DNA from: Muscardinus avellanarius
Taxonomy: Eukaryota > Chordata > Mammalia > Rodentia > Gliridae
Length of the DNA: 64,000 nt
NCBI GenBank assembly: GCA_963383645.1
Contig: OY726561.1
Coordinates: 139,209,965 to 139,273,964 of the forward strand
Direction: 5' to 3'
In this document: piece after piece, positions 11,660-64,000 of the stretch
Layout of the letters: each line of letters starts with the position of its first letter
How positions within the stretch are numbered: the first letter of the stretch is position 1
Made by a program: the position numbers and the translations under genes
The notes under the pieces: generated by a model
The model's input: the letters and a program-made list of their open reading frames with translations, nothing else
Told to the model about the DNA's origin: nothing
Databases searched by the model: none

Positions 11660-12245
11660 TTTTGAGATTTATTGATTGATTTATTATTAATTTTTTGAGA
11701 TGCTGGGAATTGAACCCAGAGCATTCTACCTCTGAGCTACACCCCTAGCTCGATTTTATATTTTTATATTCTTTTTAAATTTTTACTGATACACTGTAGT
11801 TATGCATCTTAATGGAGTACAAGGTGGTGGAGGCACACATGCACACATCACCTAATTAGCTCTTCCCCGATTCCTGCCCCATTCCCTCCCCTCCCTCCTT
11901 CTCATGTTCGGCTCAGTGATGGACTTGGATGTTTGTGAAAGTACATCATATACATTAGGGAATGTCCCTCCTCCCTTCCCCCATCATCCTTCTCCATCCT
12001 CCTCATTTGCTCATCTATGGTTTCTCTTTCCTCCTCTAGAGTTCCTCCTATGACCCTTTTTCTCCCTAACTTTCACAAGTAGGGAGAGCATCTGATTTTG
12101 CACTTTTTGTGAATGGAACTGGAGAATATCTTTCTAATTTTGACATCAGGCCTCAGTAAGTTGCCAAGGTTGGCCTGGAACCTGTAATCCTTCTGTCTCA
12201 GCCTCCCAAGTGCTAGGAGAAAGGTGTCCGCCATCATACCCAGCT
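11660..12245 (-). mobile_element. B1-dID SINE split by an L1 fragment
   Basis: The ID part lies at 11695-11765 and the B1 part at 12142-12245. The missing middle is replaced by the L1 sequence at 11766-12140. The two halves together give one standard-length SINE. Confidence 0.75.
11766..12140 (-). mobile_element. L1 3' end fragment inserted in a SINE, probable 5' inversion
   Basis: 11766-12090 reads as the complement of the local L1 3'UTR (complement of the ...atgcatcttaatgg / cactgtagt tail also seen at 18370 and 61690). At 12105-12130 a string tgaatggaactggagaatatc has the opposite, sense orientation and matches the L1 segment just upstream of the 3'UTR. This is the pattern left by twin priming. 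Confidence 0.6.
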
Positions 12246-12417: not shown

Positions 12418-13117
12418 AAAATAAATGAAGACACTCACTCCCGCCGGCCGCTCTCCGCGCTCCTCCATCGCTCGCCGCCGCCGGTCCAACGCCGATTGCC
12501 ATGGAAGAAGAAATCGCTGCTCATCATTGACAATGGCTCCGGCACGCGCAAGGCCGGCTTTGCTGGCGACGATGCCCCTCCATCGTCAGGCGACCCGGCA
12601 CCAGGGCGTGATGGTGGGCATGGGGCAGAAGGAGGTCCAGAGCAAGCGGGGCATCCTGACCCTGCAGTACCCCATCGAGCACGGCATCGTCTTCAACTGG
12701 GACGACATGGAGCAGATCTGGCACCAGAGCAGTGATCTGTGCAGGGTATTGCCGTCAGCGGACTGACTGCTCCGGGATTTCTCGGGCTGGCAAGAGTCCT
12801 GGACCAGCGGTCCCTTCCATCTTGCCGGTCTAACAGGGTGGGAAGGTCGAGCCTTAGGACCCAGTTTCCGTTCCTACTGATGCTTACCCGCCCGAACACC
12901 GTGGGTTAGTACTTGCCCTGAGTTGGAGACAGTTTGCATTTATACCTGTAAATTTATTCATTTTAATTTATGTAAGGTTTTTTGTACTCAATTCTTTGGT
13001 TTTCTACTGTTATGTGAGAACATTAAGCTCCAGCAACACTGGCACTAAGGAAAATAAAAGTGCTGCAATACAAAAAAATAAATAAAAAATTAAAAAATAA
13101 AATAAAATAAATGAAGA
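12418..13117 (+). pseudogene. ACTG1: Processed pseudogene of cytoplasmic gamma-actin, heavily deleted
   Basis: The insert keeps a GC-rich 5'UTR (about 12432-12500), the start ATGGAAGAAGAAATCGC at 12500 (Met-Glu-Glu-Glu-Ile, the gamma rather than beta actin N terminus), then actin codons to about residue 85-90. It then jumps to the ACTG1-type 3'UTR (from about 12770; ctgtaaatttattcatttt) and ends after aataaaagtgctgc in an A-rich tail. Residues 90-375 are missing, so it cannot encode actin. Within the coding part small deletions remove the segments after GDDAP and after GMGQK and shift the frame. There are no introns. The 14-base string aaaataaatgaaga flanks it at 12418-12431 and 13104-13117, the mark of L1-mediated insertion. 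Gene identity rests on the N terminus and my recognition of the 3'UTR. Confidence 0.9.
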
Positions 13118-14597: not shown

Positions 14598-15445
14598 ATT
14601 TAGATGCTTCACGAAAGAAGAAATACAAATGGTCAATAAATATATGAAAAAATGTTCACCATCATCAGCAATAAGAGAGATGCAAATCAAAGCTACAGCA
14701 AGATTTCACCTAACCCAATGAGAATGGCAATCATTAAAAAATAGTAATAAATGATGGCAAGGATGTAGAGAAGTAGGAACTCCGATACACTGTTGGTGGG
14801 ATTGCAAATTAGTGCGACCACTTTGGAGATCAGAAGGATGGGAATGAATCTACTGTATGACCCAGCCATACCACTCCTGGGTATCTACTCAGAGGAATCT
14901 AAATCAGACCCCGGTAGTAATGCACGCACATCTGTGTTTATAGCAGCACAATTTATGATGTCACACTATGGAACCAGCCTAGGTGTCCATCAACAGATGC
15001 ATGGGTTTCATAATTATGGGATGTATACACTATGAAATTCTACTCAGCCACAAAGAAGAAAAAATCAGGAAAATGTATAGAACTGGAGAACATTATAAGT
15101 GAGATTAGTCAGTCACAAATAGTGAATGGTTGGGTGTTTTCCCTCCTCTGTGGAAACTAGGAAGTAATTGGGATGCAGGAGAACTCTAGACAAAGGACGA
15201 GAAACTCCAAGTGGAGTGATGGAGGGGCCTACCAGAGGGGAAGCTGGAGGGAGGAGGGAGCCAGGGAGAAGGAAGCACGTTGGTGGACATGATATACAAA
15301 CACAGATTTATCAATGGCCGTCTGAATGGTGAGCACAGGAAGGGTGCGGAGGAGACGCAACGATGCTGTGTGCATGTATGTCTCTATCACTCTGAACAGC
15401 ATCATGATACATGATTACGATGCACCAATACAAAAAAAGATACAT
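14598..15445 (+). mobile_element. 5'-truncated L1: ORF2 C-terminal end plus 3'UTR
   Basis: Sense ORF2 C-terminal coding remnants (for example the segment around gtgggattgcaaattag and ctcagccacaaagaag) are followed by a 3'UTR ending cacgatgcaccaatac and an A-rich tail. It is interrupted by stops and frameshifts. The HAL1-like copy 1 was inserted immediately after its tail. Confidence 0.8.
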
Positions 15446-15457
15446 CTAAAATATGTC

Positions 15458-16429
15458 GAGGACTTTCGGGAAGATGGCGATAGAGAAAAGTGGGGCTTAC
15501 AAGCCCACCTAACAACCAATCACTATTACCACAAAATCAGCGCCTTTCATAGCCAGAAAACACCATCAGCAGAGAAACAAAAAATGTAATTACAAGGGAC
15601 AGAGAAAAAGAGGGCTGGAAAAACGAGACACCAGAAAAGAAACAGACCGCAGTGCTGCGGCCAGAGCCATGGGGCAGAGCAGCAGGTGCCATCTTCCCTT
15701 GCGGCACCAGGCCCCAGAGAGGAGGGGGACTCAGAACGGAGCTCAGAGCCACAGAGGAGATACGTCGGCCTCACGCCCGAGGACACGGCAGCAGAGCCTT
15801 ACTGCCGGCGGCAGTGGCAAATTCACCAGACAGCTACAGACCAACGCATTCAACAGCCCACCAGGCTCCAGAGAGGAGTGGTGGACAGCCACTGCAGAAG
15901 AGCCGCTGCAGAAGAGCCAGGCGGAATTCAGCAGATTTCCCGGCGCAGAGAGCATCTAAAGCTCCCAGTGGCTGGGCTCAGCACACCTTGCAGGGACTCA
16001 GAGCAGAGCTCAAAACCAGAGAAGAAATACGCCAGCCTCACAGACAAGGGCATGGCAGTGGCGCCATATTGCCACCAGTGACGGCAGCAGCAAACTCACT
16101 GAGTACACTAAAGCTCCATCAGCACATTCAACAAAAGTGAGTAAAATTGCGCCCCCTAGAGGAGAAATCTCAGTACTGCACTCCCAGGGACTTGACCCAG
16201 TGGAGGAATGGCAGTGGCAGAGATATCACACCATAGGAGAACACCCAACCTGGCACCCCCCAAGGTCTAAAGCAGCCTCGATTGACTCCCAGGGTCTGAG
16301 ACTCTGCGATACAACCTAGTAAAGGAGTAGTGGGAACTGAGATACCACAGACTCGAGATCCAGAGCACCTTACGTGAAGTCATAGTGACCCAAGGGAAGA
16401 ACCCAGAGAAGGCACAAACTTCCAAAATC
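15458..16429 (+). promoter_or_regulatory. 5'UTR / promoter region of half-L1-like copy 1
   Basis: It begins gaggactttcgggaagatggcg; AAGATGGCG at 15471-15479 is a YY1-type site, the motif that positions initiation in L1 promoters. Two related segments about 267 bases apart (starting at 15728 and 15995, each gactcaga..gagctca) look like tandem monomers. The region is GC-rich with many CpG. Confidence 0.6.
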
Positions 16430-17345
16430 ATGGGAAAGAGGAATAACAATGGAGCAATGAATGCCCACAACCCCACAACATCAGAACCCGATAAAACAGA
16501 AATCCAGAGATTTCTAGAAGATCAAATCAGGAAAATAACTGTAGAAATAACAGAGGTGTTTCGAAAAGAATTCAAAGAGAGCCAAAAAGAGATAAAGGAT
16601 GCAATTAATGAAGTAAAGGCCACAATTAAAAGTACAAACAACCGATTAGACCACATGGAGAATAGAATCTCACTTTTAGAAGAAGATCACTCCAAAAATG
16701 AATGCATAGTTTCTAATTTAGAAAAAAAAATCCGACAGCAGGAATCAGACATTGAAGAAATATGGGCGCATTTTAAGAGAGCTAACCTAGAATAATTGAA
16801 ATAGAAGAGGGAAAAGAAGGTGAAACCAAAGGGATCAACAATCTCTTCAAGGAAGTAATAGCAGAAAATTTTCCAAACATAGAGCAAGAGGTCAATACAC
16901 AGGTCCAGGAAACCTATAGAACTCCCTTTAGACAGGATTGGAGAAGAGGATCTCCATGCCACATAAATGTCAAAATGACCAATGTGGAAACCAAGCAGAG
17001 AATCTTAAAGGCAACAAAAACAAAGAGCCAATGACATTCAGAGGCAAACCAATTAGAATCACTCCAGACTTCCCAAACCAAGTCATGAGAGCCAGAAGGG
17101 CTTGGAGTAACATATTCCAAACTCTGAAAGAAAAAAACTTCCAGCCAAAAGTTTCCTACCCAGCAAAACTTTCTATCAAATTAGATGGGGAAATAAGAAG
17201 CTTCCATGACAAACAGAAACTGAAGGAATTTATGTCTTCAAAACCAGCACTAGAGAAAATACTCAAAGAGATTAACTACAAAGAAGAATTAGGTAACACA
17301 CACCAGAACCAGAGAAACAAGATTTTCGATCCAATAGATGACTAA
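16430..17345 (+). pseudogene. L1 ORF1-type protein gene, copy 1, frameshifted
   Basis: ORF1p is the RNA-binding chaperone of L1 particles. The likely start is ATG at 16430 (MGKRNNNGAMN, parallel to the MGKK start of other ORF1 proteins), then a coiled-coil region (about residues 40-115, with EIKDAINEVK and HMENRISLLEE), an RRM-like part, and a C-terminal domain with RGKPIRITPDF, NFQPKVSYPAKLS and a FHDKQKLKEFM segment. Compared with copies 2 and 3, one base is lost near 16790 (ends the frame at 16795) and another near 17031. Without these the frame would run to the TAA at about 17345, giving roughly 304 residues, close to usual ORF1p length. Confidence 0.85.
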
Positions 17346-17349
17346 GATT

Positions 17350-18060
17350 AGTTATCTGTGGCGATTCATTATTTATGTTAGTCTTTTACCTATCTCCAAA
17401 TTGTATTGTTTGCTTTTATTGTTGCTAAATTTTAGGATTTCTAGTTGGAATATTAATATACCTTCAGATATAGCACTTGGAAATATTTTATCCCATTCTA
17501 TCAGTAACTTTTAACTCTGTTTACATTGTCTTTGGATATACAATATTGTTTTATTTTTTAGGGAGTTTGTTTATCCTTCTGTTACCTGTGCCATTGAAAT
17601 CATATCCAAGAAATCACTGCCAATTTCAATGTTGTGAGGTTTTATGACCCAGATTTCCTTCTAAAAGTTTATAATCTTAAGATTTATATTTAGGACTTTT
17701 ATCTATTTTGAGTTAATATTTGTATATGATAAAATTAGGTAAGGGTCCAATTTTATTCTTTTTCATGTAATTAATATTTTTCAATAATATTTAGTTAAAA
17801 GATTATTATTTCCTCCACCAAATGTTTGTGGAAACCTTGTCAAAAATAACTTGACAATATATGGAAGAATTTATCTCTAGGCTTTTATTTAACTCCAGTG
17901 GTTTATATATCTGCCTTTATAACAATATTACTCTGTTTCAATTATTGTAGCTTCATATGGTTTGAAATCAGAAAATATACATCCAGCTTTGTTCTTTTTC
18001 AAGGTCGTTTTGGGTATCTAGAGTCCATATTCCATATCAGGATATTTTTCTGAAAAATCA
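17350..18060 (-). mobile_element. Inverted ORF2 segment inside half-L1-like copy 1
   Basis: Read on the minus strand this matches the C-terminal half of L1 ORF2, downstream of the reverse transcriptase core: remnants equivalent to the block with gacctaaatataaatc, then agaagaaaatctgggtc, then the part ending aatgggataaaatattt. It is not an open frame. The equivalent segment lies in the same place and orientation in the other two copies. Confidence 0.75.
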
Positions 18061-18401
18061 ATAAATAAATGTATGATAGTTTCACCTAAAAAAAAAAAGA
18101 AAAAATTATTCTCTGGTAAGAAAGAAAGCAAAAATAAATATTGAAATGTTATCGTTAAGTCATCAAAAGCTTGGTATCAGACAAATGAAACTGCTATGTG
18201 AGATTACCATTGTTAATTTTGGATAAATTGCTATAAAACTAGATGTCAACCACTAAGCCAAGCATGGCAAGGAGGTATGGGGAGGGAGCGGAGTGGGGAA
18301 TGGGTAGGGGCTAATTGGGTGATATGTGCATGTATGTCTACAAAAGTCTTTTTTTTATCCCATTATGATGTATGAATACAGTGCACCAATAAAAAAAGAA
18401 A

Positions 18402-19480
18402 TAAAAAATGTCATCTTCACTATAAAAGCTAACTGTTGAAAACAAGTTTCTGACTGAAACACAGTAACACATCTTAGATGAACATGATTGAAGAATATCA
18501 TATACTAGGGAAAATAAGTTCAAAATTAAAAACCTTATGCCCAATTTAGTAATTAGAAAGCTTTTCAGTGTATATAGAACAACTGAGATATATCAATCTA
18601 CTTTTTTTAACTTTATATTTTATGAAATCTAAATATAGACCAAGTATTTTTATGAAAGTTGAGTTCCCAGATGGAGAAAAGCCATAACTAGAACACAAGC
18701 CAGATTTGGTAGGAATTGTATTTTTGAAGTTTTCTACAATAGACACACATTATTTTTATAAAGGAAAATATTATTTCCAAAGGAAAATTTAAGTTCATCT
18801 TAAGAAGCAAGAAAGAATGAAAATGTTTCCAAATGTGCCTTTCACAAATATTCTACTTTTCAGGAATAAGAGTCTCTAGCCTATTGAGAAAATAACATTT
18901 TATCAGGCAGTACATAATATGAGGGGAAAAATCAGTCAGTCTGGATTTACATGTGGGAATTTAAAAACATTTGTTAATATTTCAAATATAATTATTCAAT
19001 ACATTTTGTGAGAATCGTCTTCTTGAGCGATGAATAATGTGTTGCTCCCCTTCTGAACTCTGGCCCTCAGCTAATGTTTTCTTAGTCCTGAGAGATTCCC
19101 TAGTTAGATTTTTTAAAGATAGGCTGCCACTGGAAATTCTGTAGAAGACTCATTTCCAATCAGCCCTGTTCTGGTGGGGAAGTCACTTTGCCTGAATAAA
19201 GAAAGAGAATGCAATTCCCACTGACGTTTTTTACCCTTTCCTTTGCTATGTAACAGTTCATGAGTTGCCTTTGAGGTTTATTCTCCATGAGAATAGTTCT
19301 GAAATGGAGTGGTGAGTTACTCAGTCACCCACACCCACCATTAATCATGTATTCCATAGGATGGGGCAAAATGCTAAGGGTCTGCAGGGATTAGAACTAA
19401 GCTATTTATATTTTTTCCTCTACCTGCAAAGCAGGTTAGGTCCCAACATGAAAAAAAAAAAAATAACCATGATGCACTAG
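18402..19480. other. Unassigned AT-rich interval
   Basis: No gene or repeat that I recognise; short open frames only. Confidence 0.4.
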
Positions 19481-26284: not shown

Positions 26285-26686
26285 TCAATTCAGTGCCATT
26301 GCTTGTTTTTTTACAAATGAGGCTACTCCCACATTTGGGGCATAAACATTTACTATCATTTTATCTTCTTGGTGGATTGTTCCTTTTAACAAAAGAAAGT
26401 GTCCTGCTTTGTCTCTTCTGATGTGTTTTAGCTTAAAGTCTGTTTTGTTGGATATCAGCATTGCTACCCCTGCCCATTTTTGGTCTCCATTAGCATGGTA
26501 TATCTTTTTATATCCTTTCACTTTCAGTCTGTGAATATTTTTAGCTGTAAGGTGAGTTTCTTGCAAACAGTATATATTTGTATTATGTTTTTTAATCCAC
26601 ATTGCCAGTCCATGTCTTTTGATTGGTGAGTTAAGTCCTTTGATGTTCAGTGTTATTATCAAAATATAATTTTTGTTTCCTGTCAT
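26285..26686 (-). pseudogene. L1 ORF2 endonuclease domain fragment
   Basis: A 133-codon open stretch encodes the start of the apurinic/apyrimidinic-type endonuclease of L1 ORF2. Motifs: ITLNIKGLNSPIKR near the N terminus (Asn of the active site), CLQETHL with the metal-binding Glu (about residue 43), and WAGVAMLIS. It stops where the internal deletion begins, so it is catalytically incomplete. Confidence 0.85.
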
Positions 26687-26699
26687 TTTGTGTTCTGTC

Positions 26700-27480
26700 T
26701 TCTGTTTGGTATCCTGTTATTTCTTCTTTACTTAGATGTCCCCCTGATCACCTTTATCTCTTCTCTGGTTCTGAAGTCTGCTTGTTTTTTCTTCTTTATG
26801 GTTTATTTCTTTAAGTATTTTCTCTAGTGTTGGCTTTGAATTCATGAATTTTTTGATGTTCTGCTTATCTTGAAACCCTTTGTTTCTTCATCAATTTTGA
26901 ATAATAGTTTTGCTGGTTATAGAATTTTGGTTGGAAGTTGTTTTCTTCCAGGGTCTGGATCATATCATGCCAGTCTCTCCGGGAATTCATGATTTGGGTT
27001 GTATAGTTATTGTTTTGCTATGATATGTCACCCATCCTTTTGTTCTCACTGCTTTTATGATTCTTTCCTTGACATCTATGTTGGTCATTTTGATTATTAT
27101 TATATGGCATGGGTAGGTCCTTCTAGATCTTGTCTTAGTGGTGTTCTGTATGTCTCCTGGACATGAAGATCCAAATCTCTTTCCATGTTTGGAAAATTCT
27201 CTGAAATTATTTCTCTGAAGAGATTACGGATGCCCTTGGTCTGTACCTCTATTCCTTCTTCAATGCCTTTTATCCATAGGTTAGGATGCTTCATATTGTC
27301 CCATAGTTGCTGGATGTTTAGGTTTTGTTGCTGTAATGACTTCTGTATGCTGTTACTGTGTTTTTGGTTTTGAATGAACTGCCTTCTAACAGTGATATTC
27401 TACTTTTCATTTCATCTAATCTTCCAGAATTTCTTTCTATTGCTGTCTTCATTTCATTTATTGACTCTTTTATTTCATTC
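26700..27480 (-). pseudogene. L1 ORF1 remnant of an L1 family distinct from the half-L1-like copies
   Basis: The minus strand contains pieces such as NEIKESINEMKTAIERN (coiled coil), KHPNLWIKGIEEGIEVQ and QETYRTPLRQD, homologous to but clearly different from ORF1 in copies 1-3. Multiple stops and frameshifts are present. The N-terminal 70 or so residues are absent at the junction with copy 2. Confidence 0.75.
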
Positions 27481-28258
27481 CAGTGCTGTAGCCGGAGCCA
27501 TGGCACAAAGCGGTGGGCGCCATTTTCCCTTGCAACACCAGGCTCCAGAGAGGAGGGGAACTCATAACGGAGCTCAGAACCAGAGAGGAGATAAGCTGGC
27601 CACACGCCTGAGGACGCGGCAGCAGCGCCTTACTGCCGGCAGCAGCAGCGAGCTCACCGGACGACGCCAGACCAATGGACTCAACAGCCCACCAGGCTCC
27701 AGAGGTGCGGCAGACAGCGAGCCTAGGTGAGCCGCTGTGGATCAGCCGGGAGGAATTCAGCAGATTTCTCAGCATGGGGAGCATCTAAAGCTCCCAGAGG
27801 CTGGGCTTAGCACACACTGCAGGGACTCAGAGCAGAGCTCAAAAACAGAAAAGAAATACGCCAGCCTCATGGCTGAGGGTGTGGCAGCGGCGCCATATTG
27901 CCACTGGCAGCAGCAGCAGCGAACTCACCAAGTCCACGGCAGCTCCATCTGCGCACTCAAAAACAGTAGGTCAAATTGCAGCCCCTAGAGGAGAAATCCC
28001 AGTACTGTACTCCCAGGGATTTGACCCAGTGGGGGAGTGGCGGTGGCAGAGATATCACACCATAGGAGAACGCCCAACCTGGCACCCCCCATGGTCTAAA
28101 GCAGCTTTGATTGACTGCCAGGGTCTGAGACTTTGTGATACAACCCAGTAAAGGAGTAGTAGGGACTGAGATACCACAGACTCGAGATCCAGAGCACCTT
28201 AAGTGAAGTCGTAGTGACCCAAGGGAAGAACCCAGAGAAGGCACAAACTTCCAAAATC

Positions 28259-29385
28259 ATAGGAAAGAGGAATAACAATGGAGCAATGAATGCCCACAAC
28301 CCCACAACATCAGAACCCGATAAAACTGAAAATCAGAGATTTCTAGAAGATCAAATCAGGAAAATAACTGTAGAAATAACAGAGGTGTTTTGAAAAGAAT
28401 TCAGAGAGAGCCAAAAAGAGATAAAGGATGCAATTAATGAAGTAAAGGCCTCAATTCAAAGTACAAACAACCAATTAGACCACATGGAGAATAGAATCTC
28501 ACTCTTAGAAGACGATCACTCCAAAAATGAATGCATAGTTTCTAATCTAGAAAAAAATATCTGACAGCAGGAATCAGACATTGAAGAAATATGGGCCCAT
28601 TTTAAGAGAGCTAACCTAAGAATAATTGGAATAGAGGAGAGAAAAGAAAGTGAAACCAAAGGGATCAACAATCTCTTCAAGGAAGTAATAACAGAAAATT
28701 TTCCAAACGTAGAGCAAGAGGTTGATACACAGGTCCAGGAAACTTCTAGAACTCCCTTTAGACAGGATCGGAGAAGAGGATCCCCATGCCACATAATTGT
28801 CAAAATGACCAATGTAGCCGGGCGTGGTGCCGCACGCTTGTAATCCCCGCGCTTGGGAGGCAGAGACAGGAAGATCGCGCAGGTTCGAAGCCAGCCGTGC
28901 GCGCTGGCTTAGGAGACCCTGTTTCCAAATAAAAATGTAAAAATAGGTCTGGGAGTGTAGTCTGGAGGTAGAAGGGCTTCCAGGAACCCCAGTACCACCA
29001 AAAAAAAAAAAAAATGACCAATGTGGAAGCCAAGCAGAGAATCTTAAAGGCAACAAAAACAAAGGGCCAAGTGACATTCAGAGGCAAACCAATTAGAATC
29101 ACTCCAGACTTCCCAAACCAAGTCATGAGAGCCAGAAGGGCTTGGAGTAACATATTCCAAACTCTGAAAGAAAACAACTTCCAGCCAAAAATTTCCTACC
29201 CAGCAAAACTTTCTATCAAATTAGATGGAGAAATAAGAAGCTTCCATGACAAACAGAAACTGAAGGAATTTATGTCTTCAAAACCAGCGCTAGAGAAAAT
29301 ACTCAAAGAGATTAACTACAAAGAAGAAATAGGTAACACACACCAGAACCAGAGACACAAGATTTTCCATCCAACAGACAACTAA
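28259..29385 (+). pseudogene. L1 ORF1-type protein gene, copy 2, broken by SINE and CpG-type stops
   Basis: The start codon is ATA instead of ATG (28259). CGA codons of copy 1 are TGA here at two places (near 28390 in VFRKEF and near 28561 in KIRQQE), the change expected from methylated CpG decay. A young SINE (28816-29010) interrupts the RRM-to-C-terminal junction. The C-terminal domain (RGKPIRITPDF ... NFQPKISYPAKLS ... KPALEKILKEINYKEE) is otherwise well preserved. Confidence 0.85.
28816..29010 (+). mobile_element. Young B1-dID SINE inserted in ORF1 of copy 2
   Basis: Short-form subfamily. The flank aaaatgaccaatgt at 28802-28815 and 29011-29024 is an exact 14-base target-site duplication, and the host sequence is continuous across it. 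Confidence 0.95.
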
Positions 29386-29389
29386 GATT

Positions 29390-30105
29390 GGTTATCTGTG
29401 GAGATTCATTATTTATGTTAGTCTTTTACCTATCTCTAAATTGTATTTTTTGCTTTTATTGTTGCTAATTTTTAGGATTTCTAGTTGGAATATTAATATA
29501 CCTTCAGATATAGCATTTGGAAATATTTTATCCCATTCTATCAGTAACTTTTAACTCTGTTTACATTGTCTTTGGATATACAATTTTTTTTTATTTTTTA
29601 AGGACTTTATTTACCCTTTTGTTGCCTGTGCCATTGAAATCATATCCAAGAAATCACTGCCAATTTCAATGTTGTGAGGTTTTATGACCCAGATTTTCTT
29701 CTAAAAGTTTATAGTCTTAAGATTTATATTTAGGTCTTTTATCTATTTTGAGTTAATATTTGTATATGGTGTTAGGTAAGGGTCCAATTTTATTCTTTTT
29801 CATGTAATTATTATTTTTCAACAATATTTAGTTAAAAGATTAGTATTTTCTCTACCAAATATTTGTGGAAACATTGTCAAAAATAACTTGACAATATATG
29901 GAAGAATTTATCTCTAGGCTTTTATTTAACTCCAATGGTTTATATATCTGCCTTTAGAACAGTACTACACTGTTTCAATTATTGTAGCTTTATATGGTTT
30001 GAAATCAGAAAATATACATCTTCTAGCTTTGCTCTTCTTCAAGATTGTTTTGGGTATCTAGAGTCCATATTCCATATTAGGATAGATTTTTTTCTGAAAA
30101 ATAAA
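29390..30105 (-). mobile_element. Inverted ORF2 segment inside half-L1-like copy 2
   Basis: Aligns by eye base for base with 17350-18060 of copy 1, with small indels (for example a shorter ggtgttaggtaagg). Same orientation and same junctions. Confidence 0.75.
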
Positions 30106-30440
30106 TAGATAAATATATGATAGTTTCACCTAAAAAAATAGAAAAAAATATTCTCTGGTAAGAAAGAAAGTAAAAAGAAATATTGAAAGGTTATCTTTAA
30201 GTTATCAAAAGCTTGGTATCAGACAAATGAAACTGTTATGTGAGATTATCATCATTAATATTGGATAAATTGCTATAAAACTAGATGTCAATCACTAAGC
30301 CAAGCATTGGAAGGAGGGATGGGGAGGGAACGGGGTGGGAATTGGGTAGGGGCTAACTGGGCAATGTGTGCATGTATGTCTACAAAAGTATTTTCTTTAT
30401 ACCATTATGATGTATGAATACATTGCACCAATAAAAAAAT

Positions 30441-31664
30441 AAATTTAAGTATAATAAGGTAGTATCTAGATGAGAATGAGAGAAGGTTAGAGAGTAGGAC
30501 TCTTGTAGTTAGAGTATTTAAGTATGGAGATATAAAATGCCTTGAGTATTAAATACAGAGATACAGTAAGGGAAAATAAAGTTTTGAGAGAAGAGAGTAG
30601 ATAGGCTAATGTGAGGACGTTTGTATAAGGAATGGGGGGAAGGGCAAACAAGCATGAATAAACAAACAAAACAAGACACAAAAGCTAACAATTATACTTC
30701 GAGGACAAGAAAAAAAACAAAAGAAAAAAAGGAATAAGAAAGAGAAGAGAAAAGGAAAAATGAAAAGAAAGGACAAAAATGAAACAAACTAAGAACTAGT
30801 GACTGTGTGAGAAAACAAAGCAAAACAAACAACCAAACCAGCCAAAAACCCCAAATAAAAGAAAGAGAAGAAAAAAGAAAAAAAAACAAACAGAACAAAA
30901 AAAAAAGTTCTACTAATTTACAAATATGGGGCTGGGCCCATATAATATTTGTATGTCTGATCACTGGTAGAGTCTGGAATATATTCCAATGTCTCTTATT
31001 TGCTCTGTACCCTATTGTCAGCTTTTGACCCAGTCTCTGCATGATCTCTTCTCTAGCCTCTGACTGCTTTGTGCAGAGGGTGTCTAATATAGACTTGGCA
31101 CGACCCCCCTGTGACTTTGTGCAGGTACCGTGCCTTGAGCACCTTTCCTGTGTCACTAGAGGTTCTAACAGGACTAGCCCTCCGGATTCCTTCTCTGGAT
31201 GCACAGGATTACTTGGCTGCTGTGGTCCAGGCCACTGGAAGGCTCGCTGTGCTGCTGGATCCCAAGGCTTTCCTGTGTGCACAGGGTTCCTCCCCCAGGT
31301 CTCTGGAGGGCTGTGCCACTGTGGGTGCTGCCTTTGGTGAGCACACACAATTTTGGCTCGGGCGCCATTCACCACTTAAGATGTTGGGGGTCTGTGGCCA
31401 CTTTCAAGCACTTGGATTATTTATCTGGATTTCTTAAAGCTGCTGTACCGGGGTTCGCGGTTTGAGCCCACGGCCCACAATGGCACCTGTGGCCAGTCCA
31501 CAGCAGGTCAGTTGCACACTGAGGCTTTTTGCAGTGGATCCTGCAGTTCAGAGTTATTGGATTCCTTCCGCCATGGTTCCTGTTTCTGTTTTGGTTCATG
31601 AGCTGTATTTATTTTGCTCGTCTAGACACTGCCTTCTCAGTAATTGAAATTTTTTTTGTTTCAG
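30441..31664. other. A-rich and GC-rich interval, possibly 5'UTR of the interrupted minus-strand L1
   Basis: 30690-30910 is A-rich low complexity. 30940-31640 is single-copy-looking with a 227-codon minus-strand frame (30692-31375) lacking any recognisable domain; its C-terminal half is only the translated A-rich tract. A CCATGGCGG (YY1-like on minus) lies near 31573. Position and composition fit the 5'UTR of the L1 cut by copy 2, but this is inference. Confidence 0.3.
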
Positions 31665-33003
31665 CTACTGAGATATGCTATGTCCTTTGGTTGCCCTTTT
31701 GAATCTATCCCCTTGCTCTTTTTTTGATTGAACTATCTGGGTTTTTTCAGTGTTAAGCTTTATATTTTAGAGATTAGTCCTCTATCCACAAAGTAGCTGA
31801 CTAACATTTTCTCCCATATTGTAGGCTTTCTCTTTAGACCCTTTAATTTTTTCTTTTGCTTGCAAAGAAGCTTTTTAATTGCATGCGATTCCATTTATTG
31901 ATTCTCCATTTTATTTCCTGAGCTTTGGGGGTCTTATTGAGGAAGTCTTTATCAGTGTTTATATATTGGAGAGTTCTCTTCTATTAATTGTAAAGTTTCT
32001 GGTCTAATTTCTAGGTCTTTGATCTACCTTGAGTTTACAGTTATATTAGGTGAGAGATAGGGACTAATTTGCTTCTTCTGCATATAGATATCCAATCTTC
32101 CCAGAACCACTGGTTGAAAAGGCTGTCTTCCCTCCAGTATGTTTTTGGCTCCTCTGTTAAAAATCAACTGGCTATCAGTGAGGATTTGACTCTGTATCTT
32201 TCTCCTATTCCACAGGTCTATATTAGGGAAATGCAAGTCAAAACTATCCCAAGATTCCTTCAAACTTCACTTAGAATGGAAATCATCAAGAAGAAAAACA
32301 ATAAATGCTGGCTAGGATATGGGGGAATAGGAACTCCTGAACATTGTTGATGGGATTGCAAATTAGTCCAACTGCTGTGGAGATCAGTATGGAGGTACCT
32401 CAAAAGAGTGAACCACCTTATGACCCAGCTATACCACTCAGTATCTTTTCAAAAGAATTAAAGTCATAAAACTACAGTGATACACCCATGTCCATGTTCA
32501 TAGCAGCACAATCCACAACAGCCAAATTACGGAACCAACCTCGGGATTCATCAAGAGATGAATGGATAAAGAGAATGCGGTTTATACACACAATGGGATT
32601 TCACTCGGCCATAAAGAAGAACAAAATTGTGTCATTTGCAGGAAAATGGATGGAACTATAAAATATGCTAAGCGAGATCAGCCAGTCTCAGAAAATCAAA
32701 GATGGTCTGTTTTCTCATATTTGTGGAAGCTGGAGAGAAAATGGGGAATAAAGTAACTTCGGACAGTTGAGGAGAGATCAGTACAATAGTGGAAGGGGTT
32801 TGGAGAAAGGATGTGGGGAGGGTAAAAGTGAGAATTGATGAAGGAAACAGTTCAAATAATGCTAAGTGCATATATGAAGGTATCACTACTAATTTTACTA
32901 ATTTATATGGGGAGGGAGGAGGAGGAAGCAGTTGGGACGCAGAGGAAAACATACCAACCACTGTGTGCATGTATGCTTGTATCGTTTGGATTGGGTTATT
33001 TTT
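31665..33003 (+). mobile_element. L1 with a 5' inversion (twin-primed insertion)
   Basis: 31665-32218 is the complement of ORF2 C-terminal sequence; at 32219 (tatattagggaaatgcaag) the orientation flips to sense and continues through the ORF2 end and 3'UTR to about 33003. In L1 coordinates the inverted piece ends just upstream of where the sense piece starts, exactly what twin priming yields. Neither part is an open frame. Confidence 0.8.
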
Positions 33004-33017
33004 AAATTATATAAACA

Positions 33018-61640: not shown

Positions 61641-62039
61641 AAATCGAGCCCACTTTTTCTACTACAATTGTTTTTTTTTTTAATTTTTTTATTGGTGCAC
61701 TGTATTCATACATCATAATGGGATTAAAAAAAAAACTTCTGTAGACATACATGCACACATCGCCCAGTTAGCCCCTACCCAATCCCCACCCCGTTCCCTC
61801 CCCATCCCTCCTTCCCATGCTTGGCTTAGTGGTTGACATCTAGTATTATAGCAATTTATCCAAAATTAACAATGATAATCTCACAGAACAGTTTCATTTG
61901 TCTGATACCAATCTTTGATGACTTAAAATAACATTTCAATGTTTCTTTTTGCTTTCTTTCTTACCAGAGAATACTTTTTCTTTCTTTTTTTTTTTTAGGT
62001 GAAACTATCACACATTTATTTATTTATTTTTCAGAAAAA

Positions 62040-62980
62040 ATCTATCCTAATATGGAATATGGACTCTAGATACCCAAAACGATCTCAAAAAAGAACAAAG
62101 CTAGAAGTTGTATATTTTCTGATTTCAAACCATATAAAGCTACAATAATTGAAACAGTGTAATACTGTTATAAAGACAGATATATAAACCATTGGAGTTA
62201 AATAAAAGCCTAGAGCTAAATTCTTCCCTATATTGTCAAGTTATTTTTGACAAGGTTTCCACGAACATTTGGTGGAGGAAATACTAATCTTTTAACTAAA
62301 TATTGTTGAAAAATAATAATTACATGAAAAAGAATAAAATTGGACCCTTACCTAACACCATACACAAATATTAACTCAAAATAGATAAAAGACCTAAATA
62401 TAAATCTTAAGACTATAAACTTTTAGAAGAAAATCTGGGTCATAAAACCTCACAACATTGAAATTGGCAGTGATTTCTTGGATATGATTTCAATGGCACA
62501 GGCAACAGAAGGGTAAACAAACTCCCTAAAAAATAAAAAAATAGAGCCGGGGGTGATGGCGCACGCTTGTAATCCCTGTGCTTGGGAGGCTGAGACAGGA
62601 GGATCACACGGGTTCAAAGCCAGCCTCAGCTACTGAGTGAGGCTCTCAGCAATTTAGTGAGACCCTGTTTCCAAATAAAATATAAGAATAAGGTCTGGGA
62701 ATATAGCCCGGAGGTAGAAAGCCTCTGGGTTACACCCCCAGTACCATCAAAAAAATAAAAAATAATAAAATAAAATTTAAAAATTGTATATCCAAAGACA
62801 ATGTAAACAGAGTTAAAAGTAACTGGTAGAATGGGATAAAATATTTCCAAATGCTATATCAGAAGCTATATCAATATTCCATATAGAAATCCTAAAAATT
62901 AGCAACAATAAAAGCAAACAATACAATTTAGAGATAGGTAAAAGACTGACATAAATAATGAATCTCCACAGATAACCAAT
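62040..62980 (+). mobile_element. Inverted ORF2 segment of copy 3
   Basis: Because the element is on the minus strand, ORF2 coding sense here is plus: ataaaagacctaaatataaa, agaagaaaatctgggtc, ggataaaatatttcc are readable left to right. Interrupted by the SINE. Confidence 0.75.
62546..62760 (+). mobile_element. B1-dID SINE inside copy 3
   Basis: Intermediate subfamily with an A-rich tail; the host run of A/T on both sides obscures the target duplication. Confidence 0.85.
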
Positions 62981-62987
62981 CTTAGTT

Positions 62988-63897
62988 GTCTGTTGGATGG
63001 AAAATCTTGTGTCTCTGGTTCTGGTGTGTTACCTAATTCTTCTTTGTAGTTAATCTCTTTGAGTATTTTCTCTAGCGCTGGTTTTTAAGACATAAATTCC
63101 TTCAGTTTCTGTTTGTCATGGAAGCTTCTTATTTCTCCATCTAATTTGATAGAAAGTTTTGCTGGGTAGGAAATTTTTGGCTGGAAGTTGTTTTCTTTCA
63201 GAGTTTGAAATATGTTACTCCAAGCCCTTCTGGCTCTCATGACTTGGTTTGGGAAGTCTGGAGTGATTCTAATTGGTTTGCCTCTGAATGTCACTTGGCC
63301 CTTTGTTTTTGTTGCCTTTAAGATTCTCTGCTTGGCTTCCACATTGGTCATTTTGACAATGATGTGGCGTGGGGATCCTCTTCTCCGATCCTGTCTAAAG
63401 GGAGTTCTATAAGTTTCCTGGATCTGTGTATCGACCTCTTGCTCTATGTTTGGAAAATTTTCTGCTATTACTTCCTTGAAGAGATTGTTGATCCCTTTGG
63501 TTTCACCTTCTTTTCCCTCCTCTATTCCAATTATTCTTAGGTTAGCTCTCTTAAAATGGGCCCATATTTCTTCAATGTCAGATTCCTGCTGTCGTATTTT
63601 TTTTTCTAATTTAGAAACTATGCGTTCTTTTTTGGAGTGATCATCTTCTAGGAGTGAGATTCTATTCTCCATGTGGTCTAATCAGTTGTTTGTACTTTGA
63701 ATTGAGGGCTTTACTTCATTAATTGCATCCTTTATCTCTTTTTGCCTCTCTTTGAATTCTTTTCGAAACACCTCTGTTATTTCTACAGTTATTTTCCTAA
63801 TTTGATCTTCTAGAAATCTCTGATTTTCTGTTTTATCAGGTCCTGATGTTGTGGGGTTGTGGGCATTCATTGCTCCATTGTTATTCCTCTTTCCCAT
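62988..63897 (-). pseudogene. L1 ORF1-type protein gene, copy 3, the least damaged
   Basis: ATG at 63897 (MGKRNNNGAMN). Read through the minus strand the frame is open except for TGA at the codon that is CGA in copy 1 (STNN*LDHMEN, near 63680, a CpG-type change), TAA in EFMS*KPALE (near 63087) and a 2-base loss in the (ca)n near the C terminus. The coiled coil, the RRM-like part (LRIIGIEEGKEGETKGINN) and the C-terminal RNA-binding domain (RGKPIRITPDF, RRAWSNIFQTLKE, SYPAKLSIKLDGEIR) are all present. Copies 1 and 3 differ by private mutations, so the source gene was intact when each was made. Confidence 0.85.
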
Positions 63898-64000
63898 GAT
63901 TTTGGAAGTTTGTGCCTTCTCTGGGTTCTTCCCTTGTGTCACTACGACTTCACTTAAGGTGCTCTGGATCTCAAGTCTGTGGTATCTCAGTCACCACTAC

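Follow-up and report, generated by a model that had tools for sequence, protein, structure and literature searches.

A HAL1-like L1 Family with a Reversed ORF2 Fossil between ORF1 and the L1 3′ End

Three copies of one L1-derived family are found in the 64-kb window, the whole stretch of DNA that was analyzed, and all three have the same layout: a 5′UTR, a sense ORF1, ~0.7 kb that is antisense to the C-terminus of L1 ORF2, a sense L1 3′ end, and an A-rich tail. A sense ORF2 is absent, with only ~0.9 kb lying between ORF1 and the 3′ end. On balance, we favor a HAL1-like, non-autonomous L1 family whose founder joined ORF1 to genomic DNA in which an old L1 lay in antisense and which was terminated by an L1 3′ end. 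This reading is supported by junctions that do not vary among three copies whose flanks are unrelated, by a first junction that falls at the ORF1 stop, by lesions of the reversed block that the copies share, by a spacer without an L1 match, and by a 3′ end common to ordinary L1s, as well as by an ORF1 whose majority sequence is open over 305 codons and which has diverged less than the parts downstream of it. Against it stand a target-site duplication (TSD) that is A-rich and seen in only one of the two testable copies, and codons that carry no signal of selection. The copies are as follows.

15458–18401, plus strand: copy 1, the sole copy that gives the 5′ end of the element
27481–30443, plus strand: copy 2, 5′-truncated, with a SINE-like insert at ~28816–29010
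61684–64000, minus strand: copy 3, which runs off the end of the window and carries a SINE-like insert at ~62543–62767

A BLAST comparison of 15458–18401 with the window returned two further long copies. The initial annotation had reported the same order and junctions in three copies, and the three-copy alignment bears this out: order and joins are identical throughout. Identity is 91.7% between copies 1 and 2 (2509/2736 aligned bases), 94.6% between copies 1 and 3 (1948/2059), and 95.4% between copies 2 and 3 (1969/2065). The inserts of copies 2 and 3, which are SINE-like by eye, sit at different places, and that of copy 2 is bordered by a repeat of AAAATGACCAATGT.

The density of the family, three copies within 64 kb, is high and unexplained. 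Such density would be in keeping with segmental duplication of a single insertion, a possibility that the initial annotation had set as a check, with homologous flanks as its sign. However, when 600-bp flanks from both sides of copies 1 and 2 and from the right side of copy 3, five in all, were set against one another, different flanks shared a single 15-bp match, in a comparison confined to the window, beyond which the upstream flank of copy 3 lies. The 3′ tails, the 5′ ends, and the inserts also differ among the copies. Segmental duplication is thus ruled out for the flanks inside the window, which are unrelated, and its overall probability is close to negligible. The three copies look like separate insertions. 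The parts of the element, in the coordinates of copy 1, are given below.

15447–15457: left TSD, TAAAATATGTC, 11 bp, with one mismatch to the right TSD
15458–16429, plus strand: 5′UTR, assigned to the L1 type from its position and from a AAGATGGC motif close to its start
16430–17345, plus strand: ORF1 (L1 ORF1p), broken by two 1-base deletions
17346: junction 1, where the alignment of copies 2 and 3 to an ordinary L1 (minus strand, 26731–27479) reaches CTAAG
17347–18055, minus strand: antisense L1 ORF2 C-terminal fossil, with homology over ~17412–18017 and putative outer ends
18056–18240: spacer, ~185 bp without detected L1 similarity
18241–18401, plus strand: end of a sense L1 3′UTR and A-rich tail, matching ordinary L1 3′ regions
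18402–18412: right TSD, TAAAAAATGTC

The identity of the reversed block was examined by translation of its antisense strand. With stops written as X, the translation of copy 2 matches human ORF2p residues 855–1066 with an E value of 4.9e-21. Frameshift-tolerant alignment to ORF2p affords scores of 231, 243, and 275 for copies 1, 2, and 3, respectively, as compared to 35 for the sense strand and 29–40 for eight codon-block shuffles, both controls being from copy 2 only. The corresponding identities to human ORF2p are 81/188, 84/188, and 86/199. An ORF2-antisense block had been proposed at 17350–18060; homology is confirmed at 17442–18017 of copy 1 and extends to ~17412 in copy 3, whereas the edge at 17350 is unproved. 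The outer 52 residues of the block, next to ORF1, matched no L1 chain in the PDB, and the block matched no Pfam family at an E value of 0.001.

Four stops are common to all three copies, at human ORF2p residues 888, 937/938, 944, and 963. So are five frameshifts, whose places depend on the alignment penalties, near residues 900, 926–928, 973/974, 982, and 1032/1033. All other stops, along with one additional frameshift in each copy, vary or move in position from copy to copy. Because these four stops and five frameshifts occur in every copy, the sequences indicate that the reversed block was already dead in the common ancestor of the three. The block may have decayed only once captured, as part of the element. 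An ordinary L1 fossil elsewhere in the window is somewhat less decayed, with 76/151 identical residues, 2 stops, and 4 frameshifts. A functional role for the antisense block, through pairing of its RNA with L1 ORF2 RNA or by feeding small RNAs, is highly improbable; if it existed, the parasite would act on the very L1 on which it depends. The longest exact match between the copy 1 block and one ordinary ORF2 stretch is 10 bases, which provides no support for antisense pairing with L1.

The sequence between the reversed block and the 3′ end bears directly on how the family arose. The initial annotation envisaged a twin-priming founder, in which an L1 whose 5′ part was inverted and whose 3′ part lay in sense was fused to ORF1, with the chimera then amplified. 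What it described, an ORF1-only, HAL1-like family in which a reversed ORF2 block is fixed, holds; the twin-primed founder is weakened by the shared decay and by the ~185 bp spacer. The order seen here, with ORF2 inverted and a sense 3′ end after it, is that expected of twin priming, and a probable twin-primed L1 lies 1.2 kb from copy 2. This neighbor, at 31640–33010, consists of an antisense L1 ORF2 part and then, by eye, a sense ORF2 end and 3′UTR, and is probably an ordinary L1. Among 287 human insertions with a 5′ inversion, the join falls within 20 bp in 46% (132) but not in the other 54% (PMC12016303); twin priming is therefore not ruled out on geometry alone.

Comparison of the spacer at 18056–18240 with three ordinary L1 3′ regions found 124, 56, and 139 of 200 block shuffles to be as good as the real sequence, a result in which a diverged L1 3′UTR could be missed, as only two of the three comparators match the 3′ end of the family. 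That 3′ end is clearly of L1 origin: 18241–18392 matches 11780–11924 (minus strand) and 15364–15436, with 0/200 shuffles as good in either case. It does not match the third ordinary L1 region, 32215–33015, where 97/200 shuffles are as good. Beyond these regions, the local alignments obtained for the tail were too loose to be counted as matches. The spacer is probably plain genomic DNA. Judging from the 1275 residues of the ORF2p chain, an estimated ~0.6 kb of L1 that would link the reversed ORF2 part to the sense 3′ end is absent. The inverted and sense parts do not adjoin as pieces of one L1, insofar as the spacer test with its three comparators can tell. The spacer, the missing ~0.6 kb, and the death of the reversed part already in the ancestor all argue against twin priming, and a fresh twin-primed founder is unlikely. 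Because one of the three L1 comparators lacks the 3′ end of the family, we hold the capture of genomic DNA with less confidence, and allow twin priming more, than would otherwise be the case.

At junction 1, the CTAAG that ends the alignment of copies 2 and 3 to the ordinary L1 lies one base past the ORF1 stop, whereas the local alignment of copy 1 ends earlier, at 17323. The final ~35 bases of ORF1 are poorly conserved between the family and the ordinary L1, and the two stop codons align. A junction at the ORF1 stop could also have been produced by RNA splicing: a transcript would have been spliced from a donor at the ORF1 end to an acceptor in a T-rich antisense L1 lying downstream, and the product then retrotransposed. 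Antisense L1 is a source of splice acceptors, and the one ordinary L1 available reads CTAA-GTAAAG at the junction, which contains a GT donor. However, this donor is weak, no source locus displays an acceptor, and junction 2 requires a separate cause, which leaves a spliced founder quite unlikely. We regard as no likelier a founder made by two template switches in one target-primed event, from L1 3′ end RNA to antisense-fossil RNA and then to ORF1 RNA. LINE template switching and tripartite chimeras have been described (PMC4476161), but two switches are required here, most of the switches described in that source go to U6-type RNAs, and nothing in the window distinguishes template switching from the joining of DNA.

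These observations allow us to outline how the favored capture of genomic DNA might have proceeded. In the founder, ORF1 would have been joined, by DNA deletion or another join, to genomic DNA holding an old antisense L1, and the captured DNA would have ended in a separate L1 3′ end. Transcripts would run from the 5′UTR to this captured 3′ end and make ORF1p. The absence of a sense ORF2 suggests that these transcripts would be reverse transcribed in trans by the ORF2p of ordinary L1s, with the reversed block as presumably passive cargo. The evidence does not separate DNA deletion, template switching, and splicing. A pattern built on the junction gave no matches in the prokaryote and viral collections (genome_contigs and viral_contigs), and Rfam gave none at gathering scores.

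ORF1 is intact in none of the three copies. In addition to the two deletions of copy 1, copy 2 has a changed start codon, one stop, and the insert, and copy 3 has two stops and a 2-base deletion. The three-copy majority sequence is nevertheless open for 305 codons plus a stop. The identity of the protein was established on copy 3, whose open stretch matches human LINE-1 ORF1p (PDB 2ykp and 2yko) with an E value of about 9e-56, and the Pfam families PF02994 and PF17490 (Transposase_22 and Tnp_22_dsRBD). Patterns of ORF1 matched 7 viral and 31 genome stretches in the prokaryote and viral collections, none of which was confirmed by tblastn, as expected there.

Divergence at non-CpG sites is lower in ORF1 than in the downstream parts for all three pairs of copies: 31/895 versus 67/1034 (p = 0.003) for one pair, and 33/891 versus 60/1032 (p = 0.033) and 25/895 versus 56/1038 (p = 0.004) for the other two. 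This difference may reflect constraint on ORF1 while the source elements diverged; regional mutation rates may also lie behind it. Private differences in ORF1 are synonymous in 19 of 58 cases (0.33). The neutral expectation is 0.26, which this fraction exceeds by little, so the codons do not show selection on ORF1, a result that is not decisive.

The 5′UTR of copy 1 contains an internal duplication of ~130–140 bp (15726–15855 and 15993–16133, 70%). Between copies 1 and 2, non-CpG differences number 69/430 in 15650–16151 but fall to 14/286 over the 300 aligned bases that follow (p = 2e-6). Along 15650–16430 versus 27481–28259, non-CpG divergence thus steps from ~5% to 16% upstream of ~16152. 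It is as if 5′UTRs had been exchanged, or as if the two copies sampled different sublineages. Replacement of L1 5′UTRs is known (PMC5753468).

An 11-base target duplication with one mismatch had been described for copy 1 and is indeed present. The T/AAAA step in its left repeat fits an L1 endonuclease site. The duplication is A-rich, and 53 of 3000 random left flanks taken from the window match the right side equally well. A scan of the flanks of copy 2 gave no TSD, and copy 3, cut by the window end, is not among the two testable copies. An ordinary minus-strand L1 at 26400–27480, with an ORF1 end and (by eye) an ORF2 start, adjoins the 5′ end of copy 2. The sequence beyond the right end of copy 2 does not resemble a continuation of this L1, so copy 2 may lie at the site of a deletion or rearrangement.

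HAL1s are ORF1-only L1 derivatives that have arisen several times (PMC5753468) and rely on enzymes supplied by full-length LINEs (PMC5322556); named families include HAL1, HAL1B, HAL1M8, guinea pig HAL1-1/-3, and marmoset HAL1-1C_Cja (PMC5753468, PMC3183009). The family described here is likewise L1-derived, restricted to ORF1, and A-tailed, and it occurs as three copies in one 64-kb window. Its ORF1 is in sense and of L1 type, no sense ORF2 accompanies it, and its L1 3′ end and A-tail are matched by two of the three ordinary L1 regions. It differs in that ~0.9 kb, made up of an antisense L1 fossil together with non-L1 DNA, is fixed between ORF1 and the 3′ end, the catalogued HAL1s being compared by their descriptions. 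By its anatomy, the family is of the known HAL1 kind, as a variant with a reversed, dead L1, and it is by these descriptions that it is set apart from other HAL1s. SVA is a composite, L1-dependent element. It resembles the present family as a patchwork, non-autonomous element mobilized by L1, but the family here retains ORF1 and its 5′UTR. In twin-primed L1s, too, a sense 3′ part comes after an inverted ORF2 (PMC12016303). Each of these is a single insertion made from one L1, whereas in the present family several copies have inherited the arrangement, along with a spacer that has no L1 match.

Neither an inverted-ORF2 family nor a squirrel HAL1 is named among the matches listed, which comprise titles and the starts of abstracts of CC-licensed PMC papers. 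The squirrel row in PMC3183009 gives no HAL1, but that row lists just five families. Extinction or quiescence of L1 in ground squirrels is cited in PMC8535693 and PMC5857283.

These data suggest that ORF1-only L1 derivatives can arise by the swapping of ORF2 for arbitrary genomic DNA and not only by the loss of ORF2. They further suggest that even a dead, inverted L1 may serve as such replacement DNA, with an L1 3′ end at its terminus, and that mobile elements can take up scrap genomic sequence as a permanent component. If the copy number proves to be high, the two junctions would serve as tags for dating the family and for probing the needs of L1-dependent elements.

Two other stretches of the window were noted. 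Low-complexity sequence at 1605–2653 has long open frames on both strands and is unlikely to be coding. The segment at 12450–13060 looks like an antisense processed pseudogene, which we presume may be of actin.
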